DNA of 64,000 bases, from positions 2,852,001-2,916,000 of the forward strand of contig NZ_QUMQ01000001.1 of NCBI RefSeq assembly GCF_003387075.1, written 5' to 3'. Each line of letters begins with the position of its first letter. The stretch's first letter is position 1. Both the position numbers and the translations under genes were made by a program. Source of the DNA: Asanoa ferruginea (GTDB taxonomy: Bacteria; Actinomycetota; Actinomycetes; Mycobacteriales; Micromonosporaceae). Positions 21,581 through 25,787 of this stretch are shown here, piece after piece. Under the pieces are notes generated by a model, which saw only the letters and a program-made list of their open reading frames with translations, had not been told where the DNA came from and did no database searches.

Positions 21581-21612
21581 GCGCCCCGCACCTCCGAAGA
21601 GATGCGGGGCGC
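21581..21612. terminator. Terminator between the GNAT gene and the LPXTG ORF
   Basis: A 10-bp stem (21581-21590 GCGCCCCGCA with 21603-21612) and a 12-nt loop lie between two convergent genes, 14 bp after the GNAT stop and 7 bp from the end of the minus-strand LPXTG frame. It is likely bidirectional. Confidence 0.75.
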
Positions 21613-21619
21613 CTTGGCC

Positions 21620-21766
21620 TCACAACGATGATCGCCGGCCAAACCTGCGAACTAGCGACCCGAGTACCACGGCGCCGAGGGCCACGCCGAGCAGCGACAA
21701 CACGTCGGCTCCGGTGGTGGGTAGCGGCTCACCATCCGGCGACGGCGACGTTGCTGGGCCGTGCAT
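21620..21766 (-). CDS. LPXTG sorting-signal segment, in frame after a UGA stop
   Basis: This 48-codon frame begins with ATG directly after the UGA of the secreted-protein gene (stop 21769-21767, ATG 21766-21764) and is in the same frame. It encodes a short Pro/Ser linker, LPTTG, a hydrophobic helix (ADVLSLLGVALGAVVLGSLV) and a basic tail (RRFGRRSSL): a textbook sortase sorting signal. Alone it has no signal peptide and would make no sense. Read with the upstream gene it gives a normal 230-residue wall-anchored protein. The options are stop-codon readthrough, a recent nonsense mutation, or re-initiation. No sortase gene is in the window. Confidence 0.7.
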   Translation of the reverse strand: MHGPATSPSPDGEPLPTTGADVLSLLGVALGAVVLGSLVRRFGRRSSL

Positions 21767-22312
21767 TCACGGATTAAGAACGATCGGGCCCGAGGTGGCC
21801 CCGTCGCGAGTCGCCTCGAACTCCACCGTCCAGGAGGTCGCGAAGCTGATCCCAGAGCACCGCTCGTCCGCTGCGAGTTGGAGAAGCACCGCATCCTGGA
21901 GCTTGACGTTGTTGAGCTGGTTGTCGTTGGCGATCACCGGTCCCGTTGTGCCGGGTTCGTAGGTGACGGCTGAAAGCATGCTGGCGCAGTAGCCCGCGTC
22001 GGTACCCCCGGTGATGTGGCCGCCGAGGATTGCGCTCGGCGTGATCTTCTTGATTCGGGCGTTGACGGTGTTGCTGGCGGGGTTCGAGACCTGGATGTTC
22101 ACGCTGCCCTTCTCTCCTGGCAGCAGCGAGAGCTGCCCGGGGCCGCGGCCGAGCCACGAACCGTTGACCGTGACGGAGTTGAAGGTCTCGGCGGTACCAG
22201 TCGCGTTTGCGGTGCCTGTCCGAGAGAACACCGCCCAAGCGGTGCCTGCAGCGGCGAGGACGCCCGCGGCGGCGAGGGTGGCGGCAAGGATTCGCTTCGA
22301 ACGCTTCTGCAA
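21767..22312 (-). CDS. Secreted small beta-rich protein (precedes in-frame LPXTG anchor)
   Basis: This 181-residue protein has a signal peptide (KRSKRILAATLAAAGVLAAAGTAWAVFS) followed by a GTANATG stretch, LLPGEKGSVNIQVSNPASNTV, and two late Cys in GYCASM and ERCSG. The layout (signal, Trp, sG-a-a motif, LxPG, NP, paired Cys) is shared with the two proteins at 23169 and 23657, so they are probably one family of small exported surface proteins. Function is unknown. The start is TTG with AGGAGAA 6 nt upstream. The stop is UGA followed directly by the LPXTG segment in frame. Confidence 0.75.
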   Translation of the reverse strand: MQKRSKRILAATLAAAGVLAAAGTAWAVFSRTGTANATGTAETFNSVTVNGSWLGRGPGQLSLLPGEKGSVNIQVSNPASNTVNARIKKITPSAILGGHITGGTDAGYCASMLSAVTYEPGTTGPVIANDNQLNNVKLQDAVLLQLAADERCSGISFATSWTVEFEATRDGATSGPIVLNP

Positions 22313-23168: not shown

Positions 23169-23651
23169 ATGCGCAACATCTCCCAGCGCACCGCCGTCAT
23201 CACCCTGGTCGTCGTCATCGTCGCCGGCATCGCCAGCGTGGCGTGGGCGGCATGGTCGGTCACGGGAAACGCCACGGCGACCGTGACCGCGTCGGAGGTG
23301 ACCGCGCTTCAGGCGACCGCCACGCCGACGGGGCATCTCTTCCCGGGCGGCAGCGCGGCCATCGAGGTCAGCGTCACCAATCCCAACGACTTCGCCGTCG
23401 AGGTGCAGTCGTTCTCGAAGGATCCGCGGGTGACGGTCGACGCGGCGCACGCCAAAGCGGGATGCACCGCCGCCAGCGTCCGCCTGAAGCCGACGAAGAC
23501 CGCGATCGCCCAGCGGGTCGACGGTGACGGCGGCACGAAGAGCTTCGTCGTCGAAGACGCCGTCGAGATGCTCGACAACGCGCCGCAGTCCTGCCAGGGC
23601 GCGTCCTTCGAGATCACGCTCGCGCTGGCCGGCGTGAGCCTCCCGGACTGA
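23169..23651 (+). CDS. Secreted/membrane-tethered small beta-rich protein
   Basis: This 160-residue protein has an N-terminal signal or anchor helix (RTAVITLVVVIVAGIASVAWAAWSVTG), then NATATVTASEV, an LFPGGSAAIEVSVTNPNDFAVEVQS segment and Cys residues in AGCTAAS and QSCQGAS. It shares the plan of the proteins at 21767 and 23657. The W-S-V-T-G-N-A-T pattern after the helix recalls exported filament-type proteins with SipW-like signals, but no such peptidase is nearby. GTAGGAGCG precedes the ATG. It is the first gene of a tight four-gene unit. Confidence 0.72.
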   Translation: MRNISQRTAVITLVVVIVAGIASVAWAAWSVTGNATATVTASEVTALQATATPTGHLFPGGSAAIEVSVTNPNDFAVEVQSFSKDPRVTVDAAHAKAGCTAASVRLKPTKTAIAQRVDGDGGTKSFVVEDAVEMLDNAPQSCQGASFEITLALAGVSLPD

Positions 23652-23656
23652 AGCTC

Positions 23657-24139
23657 GTGAAACTGATTACGGCGCTGAGCGCCGCCGCGCTGGCGCTCAC
23701 CCTGGTGGGCGTGGCGGCCGGTTCGGCCGCACAACCGGCCGGGGCCGACCTACGCCTTTCCGGCGTGGGCCGGCCCTGGCCGGGCGCCGGGCCAGACCAA
23801 CCGCGGACCTTCACCGTGGAGGCCACACCGGTCTCCGGCTTCTACCCGGGCGCCGAGCGGTCGGTCCCGGTCCTGGTGCGCAACCCCTACCCGTTCGACC
23901 TGCGGATCACCAGCCTCGGCGGCGAGGTGGCCGACAGTTCCCGCCGGGACTGCCCGGCCGGCCCCGCCAACCTGGCCGCCGGTCCGCACCAGGGCGAGCT
24001 GCCCATGACGTTGCGCGCACTCGAGGCGCGCGAAGCCGGTTCGATCCCGTTCCGGATGCCCATTTCGGTGACCGACCAATGCGTGGGGGTCACCTTCACC
24101 ATCCGGATCACCGGTGTAGCCACGAAGGTGAACAAGTGA
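23657..24139 (+). CDS. Secreted small beta-rich protein
   Basis: This 160-residue protein has a clear signal peptide (KLITALSAAALALTLVGVAAGSAAQPAGA) and a mature part with GFYPGAERSVPVLVRNPYPFDLRITSLG and two Cys (RDCPAG and DQCVG), the same PG...NP...C...C plan as its neighbours. Without an anchor helix it should be released or held by a partner. It starts at GTG, 5 bp after the preceding stop. Its own stop overlaps the next GTG (GTGA), so the unit is translationally coupled. Confidence 0.7.
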   Translation: MKLITALSAAALALTLVGVAAGSAAQPAGADLRLSGVGRPWPGAGPDQPRTFTVEATPVSGFYPGAERSVPVLVRNPYPFDLRITSLGGEVADSSRRDCPAGPANLAAGPHQGELPMTLRALEAREAGSIPFRMPISVTDQCVGVTFTIRITGVATKVNK

Positions 24140-25317
24140 AGCGACTGATCGCCACCTCTCCGGCCGTGCTCGGCGGAATCGCGGCCGTCACCCTGGTCGC
24201 CGGTGCCGGCGCGGCCATCGCCGCCTGGCGCGTGCAGAGCGAAGAGGTCGTGCTGACCGCCGGGACCGCGACGCTGTCCCAGGGCAACAAGCCGGTGGTC
24301 GCGGCAAAAGGCAACCTGGTCACGGTCTCCTGGACGCCCAACACGTTCGGCGAGCGCAAGGTCGACAGCTACCGGATCAAGCGGTACGACCTGAGCGGCA
24401 CCGCACAGCAGCCACACGGGGGCTGCGAGGAAAACGTGGCCAAGGAGACCTGCACCGACGCGCAGGTGCCGGTCGGCTCGTGGCGCTACACGGTGGTGCC
24501 GGTCAAGGCCGGCTGGACCGGGCCGGAGAGCGAGAAGAGCGACGCCGTCCTCGTCGCGGCCGACGGCAAGGTGGTGGTGATTCCGGCACCACTGGTCGAC
24601 AAGGCCGCCGGCCCGGCCGCCGGGCCCGCGGTCGTGCAGCTCGGCGATCCCGCCGACCCGGCTGTCGCGACCACCGACCTGGCCAACCAGCCGCCGGCGT
24701 GGACGCTTCAGCCCGGCGCAGACGGTGTGCTCGGCAAGGACGACACACTGACCTACGGCGGGAGTGCGGCGGTCGACCCCAAGACGATCATCAAGGACTG
24801 GGACGGCAAGGCGCGCGACGTCACCGTGGCGGCCAAGGCAGCCGACCCTGGCCACTCGGCGGTGCTGACCGTCGACGACGGCACGACGCGGGTGTTCGGG
24901 CCGCTGGCGGTGCCCGACTCGACGGTCGCGGCCGACACCACCTTCACCGCCACCCTGGCCGCGGTCGACGGTCGGATCGTCGTGACCCTCGGCGCGCCGC
25001 AGGTGGCGCCGGCACCCGACGAGGCGGCGCCCGCGCCCGCTCAGCCCACCGAGACCAGCCCGGGACAGCCGGTCCAGGAACCCGAGACGACCGCGCCGGC
25101 CGAGCCGCCCAGCCAGGAAGCACCGGCACCCACCGAGTCGGCCGGCAGCGGCACCGAAAGCGAACCGGCCGGCCCGCCGGCCAGCGACGGCGGCGGCGCC
25201 ACCGAGGGTGAGCCGGACACGCCGCTGACCGACACCTCAGCGACCGGGACGCCGCCGGCCGCCGAGGTCACCCCGACGGCGACCGGTGACCCGGCCGTCG
25301 TGCTCGTCTCCGCGTGA
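24136..25317 (+). CDS. Exported protein with fibronectin-III-like domain and Pro-rich tail
   Basis: This 393-residue protein starts with an exported helix (AVLGGIAAVTLVAGAGAAIAAW). A domain similar in pattern to fibronectin type III follows (VTVSWTPNTFGERKVDSYRIKRYDL ... GSWRYTVVPVKAGWTGPESEKSDAVLV). A further beta-rich part with DDGTTRVFGPLAVPDSTVAADTTFTATL comes next, and then about 110 residues of Pro/Glu/Ala/Thr-rich spacer with no LPXTG or end helix. It is probably a cell-surface protein whose spacer spans the wall. It overlaps its neighbours on both sides by 4 bp or less. Confidence 0.68.
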   Translation: MKRLIATSPAVLGGIAAVTLVAGAGAAIAAWRVQSEEVVLTAGTATLSQGNKPVVAAKGNLVTVSWTPNTFGERKVDSYRIKRYDLSGTAQQPHGGCEENVAKETCTDAQVPVGSWRYTVVPVKAGWTGPESEKSDAVLVAADGKVVVIPAPLVDKAAGPAAGPAVVQLGDPADPAVATTDLANQPPAWTLQPGADGVLGKDDTLTYGGSAAVDPKTIIKDWDGKARDVTVAAKAADPGHSAVLTVDDGTTRVFGPLAVPDSTVAADTTFTATLAAVDGRIVVTLGAPQVAPAPDEAAPAPAQPTETSPGQPVQEPETTAPAEPPSQEAPAPTESAGSGTESEPAGPPASDGGGATEGEPDTPLTDTSATGTPPAAEVTPTATGDPAVVLVSA

Positions 25318-25787
25318 TGACCGCCGCGGTCGACGAAGATGTGACGACCCGTGACCTGACCAGCCGTAACCTGGCGCAGGTCCGGAGCGGTGTTAACGGT
25401 GTGCAGCTCACGCCGAAGAAGATCCTCGCGCTTATGCTCGGGATCGGCCTGCCCGTGGTGATCTCAGCGGGCTGGGCGCTCGGCCAGCGTGGGCCGACCG
25501 AGACCGCCGAGGGCGGGGCCGGTGCGATGGGCACCGCGCCCGAGGAGCAGGTGCCTTCGCCGGCCGCGCAGCAAGACGTCTACGACGACGGGCCGGTTGT
25601 GGTTCCGATGGTGAGCACCGCTGCTACGGCGACGCCCACGCCGTCGGCCGAGGCGAAGACCTCGCCGGGGCCGCACCCGACCACCGGCGCGACCCCGCTG
25701 CCTGAAGACGAGACGCCGAGTCCGGAGCCAAGCCCCTCGGATCCGGAGCCGACGGTCGAGCCGAGCGTGCCGGCGACCGACCGCTAA
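25317..25787 (+). CDS. Single-span membrane protein with Pro/Thr-rich exterior
   Basis: This protein of about 156 residues has a cytoplasmic N-terminus, one membrane helix (ILALMLGIGLPVVISAGWALG near residues 43-63) and an acidic Pro/Ser/Thr-rich extracellular tail with repeated TPxP, PSPEPSPSDPEP-type runs. No domain is recognised. The start is the ATG at 25317, overlapping the preceding stop (TGATG), or the GTG at 25314. It ends the four-gene unit begun at 23169 and may hold the exported partners at the membrane; that is inference. Confidence 0.65.
   Translation: MTAAVDEDVTTRDLTSRNLAQVRSGVNGVQLTPKKILALMLGIGLPVVISAGWALGQRGPTETAEGGAGAMGTAPEEQVPSPAAQQDVYDDGPVVVPMVSTAATATPTPSAEAKTSPGPHPTTGATPLPEDETPSPEPSPSDPEPTVEPSVPATDR

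Follow-up and report, generated by a model that had tools for sequence, protein, structure and literature searches.

The window, by which is meant the whole 64,000-nucleotide stretch of DNA analysed here, carries on its minus strand (22312-21767) a gene for an exported protein of 181 residues, which begins at a TTG codon with a GGAG visible by eye upstream and ends ...GPIVLNP-TGA, the stop occupying 21769-21767. The codon directly after this UGA is an ATG (21766-21764) in frame with the gene, and the frame runs on past the stop for 48 codons (21766-21623), reading MHGPATSPSPDGEP-LPTTG-ADVLSLLGVALGAVVLGSLV-RRFGRRSSL, until it is closed by a TGA at 21622-21620 (Table 1). A preliminary description of the same DNA had reported an NP-UGA end followed by an in-frame ATG and 47 codons that encode LPTTG, a hydrophobic helix and RRFGRR; that reading is confirmed, the total being 48 codons when the ATG is counted.

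Table 1. Coordinates of the exported-protein gene, its stop and the segment behind it
Feature	Position in window	Strand	Basis
Signal peptide, residues 1-27 (QKRSKRILAATLAAAGVLAAAGTAWA-), TTG start	22232..22312	-	Sequence; very similar in 6/6 Asanoa
Mature secreted domain, two invariant Cys, predicted beta-sandwich	21770..22231	-	15-member alignment; AlphaFold2 model
UGA stop with A at +4, putative site of readthrough (leaky stop)	21766..21769	-	UGA-A context; same in A. siamensis
Pro/Ser/Thr-rich linker MHGPATSPSPDGEP, in frame after stop	21725..21766	-	Sequence
LPTTG sortase motif	21710..21724	-	Sequence; TIGR01167 above cut-off
Hydrophobic helix ADVLSLLGVALGAVVLGSLV, 20 residues	21650..21709	-	Sequence
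Basic tail RRFGRRSSL, then stop TGA 21622-21620	21623..21649	-	Sequence
Terminator-like hairpin GCGCCCCGCA...TGCGGGGCGC, then T-run	about 21581..21612	-	By eye

The leader resembles those of SipW-dependent (TasA/CalY-like) proteins, and the SipW-type signal model TIGR04088 gives weak matches in two of 15 family members (best E 0.81). For the secreted domain the AlphaFold2 model has a pLDDT of 86.7 and a pTM of 0.79; a fold search with the predicted domain returned generic beta-sandwiches, TasA not being among the 50 matches listed, and a PDB sequence search with the secreted protein gave weak matches only, the best at E 0.076. On the plus strand at 23169-25787 lies a divergent run of proteins, secreted or membrane-bound, that have leaders of a similar type (160, 160 and 412 aa), together with a 157-aa membrane protein. 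Two genes of this run (23169 and 24079) are conserved beside the anchored-family gene in all six Asanoa genomes, and the run probably belongs to the same surface system as the gene at 22312-21767.

Two further features lie close to the stop. Directly before CCG-UGA stand the codons GTT CTT AAT (21773-21781, minus strand), three T-ending codons in a row, each accounting for 3-6% of its codon family in the window; 3 of 57 window ORFs have at least three A/T-ending codons in their final four, and the T-ending run is absent from the A. siamensis gene. A hairpin similar to the one in Table 1 is seen by eye in the four unanchored Asanoa, at most about 20 bases after the stop of the domain.

Several searches bear on whether the tail is a genuine sorting signal. 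It scores about 16.1 bits (16.0-16.1) against the NCBIfam LPXTG anchor model TIGR01167, whose cut-off is 15.9, and 15 bits against Pfam PF00746, below the 20-bit cut-off of that model; TIGR01167 matches four of six family tails at E up to 1, the best at 0.0011. A detector that requires L/I-P/A-x-T/S-G, a hydrophobic stretch and two basic residues recovers 7/7 anchors of this family, and when run over 379,980 six-frame codons from ten 19-kb relative loci it found 12 sites, six of which are anchors of this family; the remaining six include one strict LPXTG, within an open frame of 141 codons. Given this background in the ten relative loci, an LPXTG arising by chance is unlikely. A profile built from the window tail and five related tails, i.e. 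from six of the seven anchors, finds the tail in the window's genome at E 4.8e-16 (a 48-aa open frame), the next match there standing at E 0.07 in a 168-aa frame. The same genome holds ten matches over cut-off to the sortase family PF04203. Sequencing error is also unlikely, because the genome is a single contig and the anchor lies behind a stop in six other assemblies (one in frame, five in the +1 frame).

Recurrence of the anchor among relatives

Six Asanoa genomes were compared, namely that of the window (G000), A. ishikariensis (G001), A. iriomotensis (G002), A. hainanensis (G003), G004 and A. siamensis (G005). The preliminary description had proposed a comparison of orthologues. The UGA and the in-frame anchor are kept in A. 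siamensis; the anchor is present in only two of the six species and the other four are without any. At the same locus and with the same layout, the A. siamensis gene reads ...TITGKAL-TGA-RSPLWPEPLPATGSDIFGLLTFGIAAVGLGAFARWRARTRTELG in frame, the TGA being followed by RSPLWPEP-LPATG, a helix and an R-rich tail. The gene also occurs in a second genus, g17, where it was found at E up to 1e-5 in five of at least 11 genomes searched, and all five genomes with the gene encode LPVTG, a helix and a basic tail in a +1 frame that overlaps the stop. A stop codon separates the sorting signal from the exported domain in the window and in A. siamensis, and in g17 the separation comes with a change to the +1 frame. 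This layout and its recurrence are directly visible in the genomes.

Anchors were sought in three frames across 30 family loci, seven of which have one, always behind a stop, and a detector search found an anchor in none of 40 further regions. A fused form, in which domain and anchor are uninterrupted, was seen neither in the 30 family loci nor in the 40 further regions; the preliminary description had held that uninterrupted frames in nearly all relatives would speak against a readthrough arrangement, and no such relative appeared. Among the 30 loci, no family member has a sense codon at the position of the UGA, and most end there. When the anchor profile was run over 354 family genomes, its seven best matches were these seven anchors, in frames of 44-48 aa, the next being at E 2.1e-6 in a frame of 604 aa. 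In a class-wide search 19 of 394 genomes had the family, a count that includes the genome of the window. In the 16 loci inspected from that search (four others were skipped as short) no LPXTG anchor was found behind the stop, and its single loose match, L147, was set aside since it looks like the N-terminus of another protein.

The preliminary description had also considered a single recent nonsense mutation that detached the anchor. This was not borne out: as the main reading, a young mutation private to the window's gene is rejected in view of the anchors behind stops in A. siamensis and g17 and the absence of fused forms from the loci and regions examined.

Candidate recoding sites in Asanoa and g17

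In both anchored Asanoa genes, those of the window and of A. siamensis, the stop is UGA-A, a count of two genes only, against none of the four unanchored orthologues, which end in UGA-C, UGA-C, UGA-U and UAG-G. UGA-A terminates 4 of 70 UGA-ending coding-like ORFs of the Asanoa loci, and as one of these is the A. siamensis gene itself, 3 of 69 others remain; it is also the stop of a paralogue without an anchor in the window (23169-23651). For E. coli, UGA followed by A is described in PMC5289835 as particularly prone to misreading by tRNA-Trp. The anchors of the window and A. siamensis are 58% identical in DNA, with 19, 11 and 22 changes by codon position, and both keep the motif, the helix and the basic tail. 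A frame-specific test on this pair counted 16 amino acid changes where 19.4 were expected, with P 0.066 for the frame of the anchor and 0.72 and 0.64 for the two others, a result that is suggestive, and only suggestive, of in-frame selection. The RNA after the stop was folded for six sequences from four genes, none of which folded better than shuffles; no Shine-Dalgarno-like stimulator was recognised by eye, and no relevant Rfam family was found in the post-stop regions. Judged by its sequence, the Asanoa site looks like one of UGA readthrough.

A different decoding of the same codon, in which UGA specifies selenocysteine in Asanoa and the protein is extended when selenium is available, is highly improbable. 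It stays as a minor rival because tRNA-Sec is present in 6/6 Asanoa (in the window's genome at G000:C1:2103618-2103709, L152, 76.7 bits, called tRNA-SeC(tca) by ARAGORN; the others are L154-L158), and a search of the five g17 genomes with the +1 layout gave no match at E up to 1e-10. However, the four Asanoa without an anchor have tRNA-Sec just the same, neither post-stop region has an Rfam SECIS match up to E 10 (a search in which bacterial SECIS elements may be too variable for the models), no homologue with a sense codon in place of the UGA was seen, and the site is a linker and not an evident redox site.

In g17 the region before the stop reads ACG TTT CAG GCT GTT CGC TGA in four of the five genomes and ACG TTT CAA GCT GTC CGG TGA in the fifth. 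Only about six codons separate the 0-frame UGA from the nearest stop before it in the +1 frame, and UUU_C, conserved in 5/5, sits five codons before the UGA. Across 67 coding-like ORFs of five 19-kb g17 loci, 11 of 772 Phe codons are TTT, and three of the 11 are the shift site, leaving 8 of 769 elsewhere, in an ORF set that missed the anchored gene in two of the five loci. The unanchored homologues L054-L056 have TTC GAG at the position of the shift site, and in the 24 loci compared TTC is used for every other Phe up to 25 codons from the stop; a TTT near the end of an ORF is also found in one other gene (in G215 and G218), six codons before its stop. As the five g17 genomes are related, their shared TTT does not represent five independent events. 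In bacteria, according to PMC5009743, UUU_Ynn is 'especially prone to +1 frameshifting'. Two g17 sequences folded for a stimulatory structure gave z-scores of -1.04 and 0.01. By its sequence, the g17 site looks like a programmed +1 frameshift.

Selection on the g17 anchors was assessed in several ways; the tests, with about 40 codons to work on, are weak and gave mixed outcomes. In 9 of 10 pairs the anchor matches or exceeds the gene body in DNA identity, and in several pairs this identity drops right after the stop of the anchor (G089-G218: 0.93-1.00, then 0.67, 0.63 and 0.00); no such drop follows the anchor in the closest pair, G089-G215, and the identity of G217 recovers further downstream. 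Indels within the anchors are multiples of three, and in the +1 frame the second codon position takes the fewest changes (20, 7 and 18 minimum changes by position; P 0.04). Over the whole anchor, the four pairs with G221 have fewer amino acid changes than random placement would give (P 0.002-0.022); G217 shows no shortage of amino acid change against its three closer relatives (P about 0.8), with an NG86 dN/dS for the anchor of 1.7-2.2 over about 39 codons. When the test is confined to the gapless block, the four G221 pairs give P values of 0.03, 0.095, 0.21 and 0.049 in the anchor frame, two of which are not significant; for G089-G221 the value of 0.03 in the anchor frame stands against 0.80 and 1.0 in the others, and the tendency in the main frame is the opposite one (P near 1). 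In the wider pairs the g17 anchors change in the manner of coding sequence; in pairs with G217 this is less clear.

A separate mini-protein offers another explanation for a coding segment behind a stop: ribosomes would re-initiate after the UGA and produce a free LPXTG membrane peptide of 44-48 residues, which may be a sortase decoy or a sortase substrate in its own right. The preliminary description had listed re-initiation at the adjacent ATG, and in the window the TGA-ATG junction makes this possible, even though no ribosome-binding site is apparent by eye before that ATG. It does not carry over to A. siamensis, where re-initiation would give no working motif because no start codon lies between the UGA and LPATG, the only candidate being the TTG that encodes the L of LPATG itself. 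In g17 an ATG or GTG between stop and motif is found in only two of five genomes; a +1-frame CTG is present in 5/5, but CTG is a rare start. Re-initiation also leaves the conserved UUU_C without a reason. For prokaryotes, termination-reinitiation between overlapping genes is described as widespread (PMC6728339), and stand-alone LPXTG membrane proteins of about 50 aa with their own ATG do exist in g44 and g24. Taken together, these points make a mini-protein unlikely as the product of the segment, without making it far-fetched.

The stand-alone proteins comprise L113-L117 from five g44 genomes and L118-L119 from two g24 genomes (e.g. MSQPQVIG...LPLTG-helix-RSGRY), and a second tiny hydrophobic ORF lies close behind them. 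Their short-frame matches to the anchor searches were rejected as further cases of an anchor behind a stop.

Among the three options of the preliminary description, readthrough that yields two forms is the one best supported, by the A. siamensis layout, by UGA-A in both Asanoa genes and by the g17 anchor behind a shift-prone codon. Frameshifting seems to do the same job in g17 as readthrough in Asanoa.

History of the locus

A tree of five neighbouring genes joins A. siamensis to A. iriomotensis with a support of 100 and places the window's species elsewhere, so that the two anchored Asanoa are not sister species. The tree of the gene itself differs: here the A. siamensis gene groups with the G004 gene and a g7 gene (96/89, 99/94), and the window and g17 genes lie apart from this supported branch, in one larger group without settled branching. 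The window protein is 32-48% identical to its Asanoa orthologues (G001-G005), with a nearly identical leader, and the neighbouring genes are 96-97%, 85-87%, 75-84%, 69-78% and 62-69% identical to those of the window. As gene tree and species tree disagree, the mature domain of this surface protein seems to diversify quickly or to be exchanged as alleles, inside more conserved flanks. By this account the anchor was either kept from an ancestor and cleanly lost several times, or gained more than once and each time behind a stop; the anchor lies behind the stop under either history, which suggests that the stop is part of the design.

A rival reading takes the anchor for a relic, once fused to the domain, then severed by a nonsense or frameshift mutation and persisting by inertia. 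The four Asanoa species without an anchor fit such decay, as does an anchor dN/dS above 1 for G217 against its close relatives, and A. siamensis possesses two decayed extra copies of the gene (L023 and L120), one with a degenerate anchor (TRGPDVIGLLTFRLTAVGL), both copies being incomplete because their contigs end there. However, neither the anchor profile nor the detector searches found a fused member, and at least two lineages (the A. siamensis gene on the one hand, the window gene and g17 on the other) would have had to be cut at the end of the domain. The g17 anchors, moreover, are at least as conserved as the gene body in nine of the ten pairs noted above. In a neutral simulation, an intact anchor survived a random change of 26% of sites in about 2.3% of runs and a change of 40% in at most 0.15%, and the observed anchors differ by 26% (G089-G221) and 42% (G000-G005). 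Persistence by inertia is accordingly rated as quite improbable.

Proposed mechanism and comparison with known systems

The reading put forward here is that translational recoding, by UGA readthrough in Asanoa and by a +1 frameshift in g17, would produce a minor, wall-anchored isoform of a subunit that is mostly released; the comparison of genomes gives it a probability of roughly two in three. The case is carried by two Asanoa genes and one g17 clade, in which the shift site and the stop context are conserved. The majority of ribosomes would terminate at the UGA, and their product would be secreted and released. A minority would decode the UGA, the A that follows it making Trp the most likely reading, and so add the complete LPXTG sorting signal, whereupon a sortase, one of the ten in the genome, would join the extended protein to the cell wall. 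In g17 the same split would be reached by a +1 ribosomal frameshift at UUU_C. A leaky stop would set a low ratio of wall-bound to free subunits, and the few anchored molecules perhaps hold or seed an assembly of the free ones. Recoding, its rate, the use of a sortase and the role of the anchored form are what we infer from sequences of this kind.

A literature search of open-access papers returned, among the matches listed, no report of sortase anchoring controlled by recoding. One match, PMC6180393, is a genome paper in which frameshifting appears only as the citation of a phage case, and another, PMC3711429, is a general survey.

The recoding model would have consequences beyond this gene. 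Whether a protein is anchored to the wall is usually regarded as settled by its gene, which either encodes a sorting signal or does not. If the model is true, the choice to anchor would be made at each translation event, so that growth phase, tRNA or the state of a release factor could shift the balance between wall-bound and free protein. To our knowledge, no cellular gene family has so far been seen to exchange one recoding mode for another with the same targeting outcome, and this one would be the first. That recoding-gated wall anchoring is a real regulatory principle here, with selection keeping a sortase signal behind a leaky stop and a fixed anchored minority drawn from one gene, appears to us slightly better than an even bet. 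Furthermore, the family contains relatives with and without the anchor as matched sets, and apparently two recoding modes that lead to a single outcome, so that how recoding evolves and what a fixed ratio of anchors to subunits is worth become directly testable, and this in harmless soil bacteria. Ordinary gene calling stops at the stop codon, and proteins of this kind would be missed by it.

Surface proteins in free and anchored forms are known from other bacteria. In Listeria, a premature stop before the LPXTG of internalin A reportedly truncates the protein (PMC5131979, among others), and the truncated form is said to be released; those stops are loss mutations of a fused gene, whereas no fused form was found in the present family. 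The long and short chaplins of Streptomyces are LPXTG-anchored and free surface subunits that work together and are encoded by separate genes; here, by contrast, one gene would make both forms. Readthrough of a UGA in phage Q-beta yields A1, a minor extended form of the coat protein, and the present proposal is like it in having a minor extended structural subunit, although the Q-beta extension is a large phage-protein domain and not a wall anchor.

An exchange of recoding modes also has a known precedent, in the retroviral gag-pol genes, where the same extension is reached by a frameshift in HIV and by UAG readthrough in Moloney MuLV; unlike these viral genes, the family described here is a cellular one of bacterial surface proteins, and what is appended is a sorting signal. 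For RF2 and antizyme, PMC5009743 states that no such replacement is known. The same source gives YopN-TyeA and a rhizobial ICE as bacterial cases of +1 frameshifting at a UUU shift site (PMC5009743), whose function and extension are unrelated to a wall anchor. In the peroxisomal proteins MDH1x and LDHBx, and in fungal metabolic enzymes, functional UGA readthrough is described as exposing a hidden C-terminal targeting signal (PMC5133446, PMC4207609). The likeness to MDH1x and LDHBx is that a leaky UGA would hide a complete C-terminal sorting signal and a minor extended form would be sent elsewhere. Unlike those eukaryotic proteins, which are directed to the peroxisome, the destination here would be the bacterial cell wall, the system is known from genomes alone, and a variant that reaches the same signal by frameshifting seems to exist.
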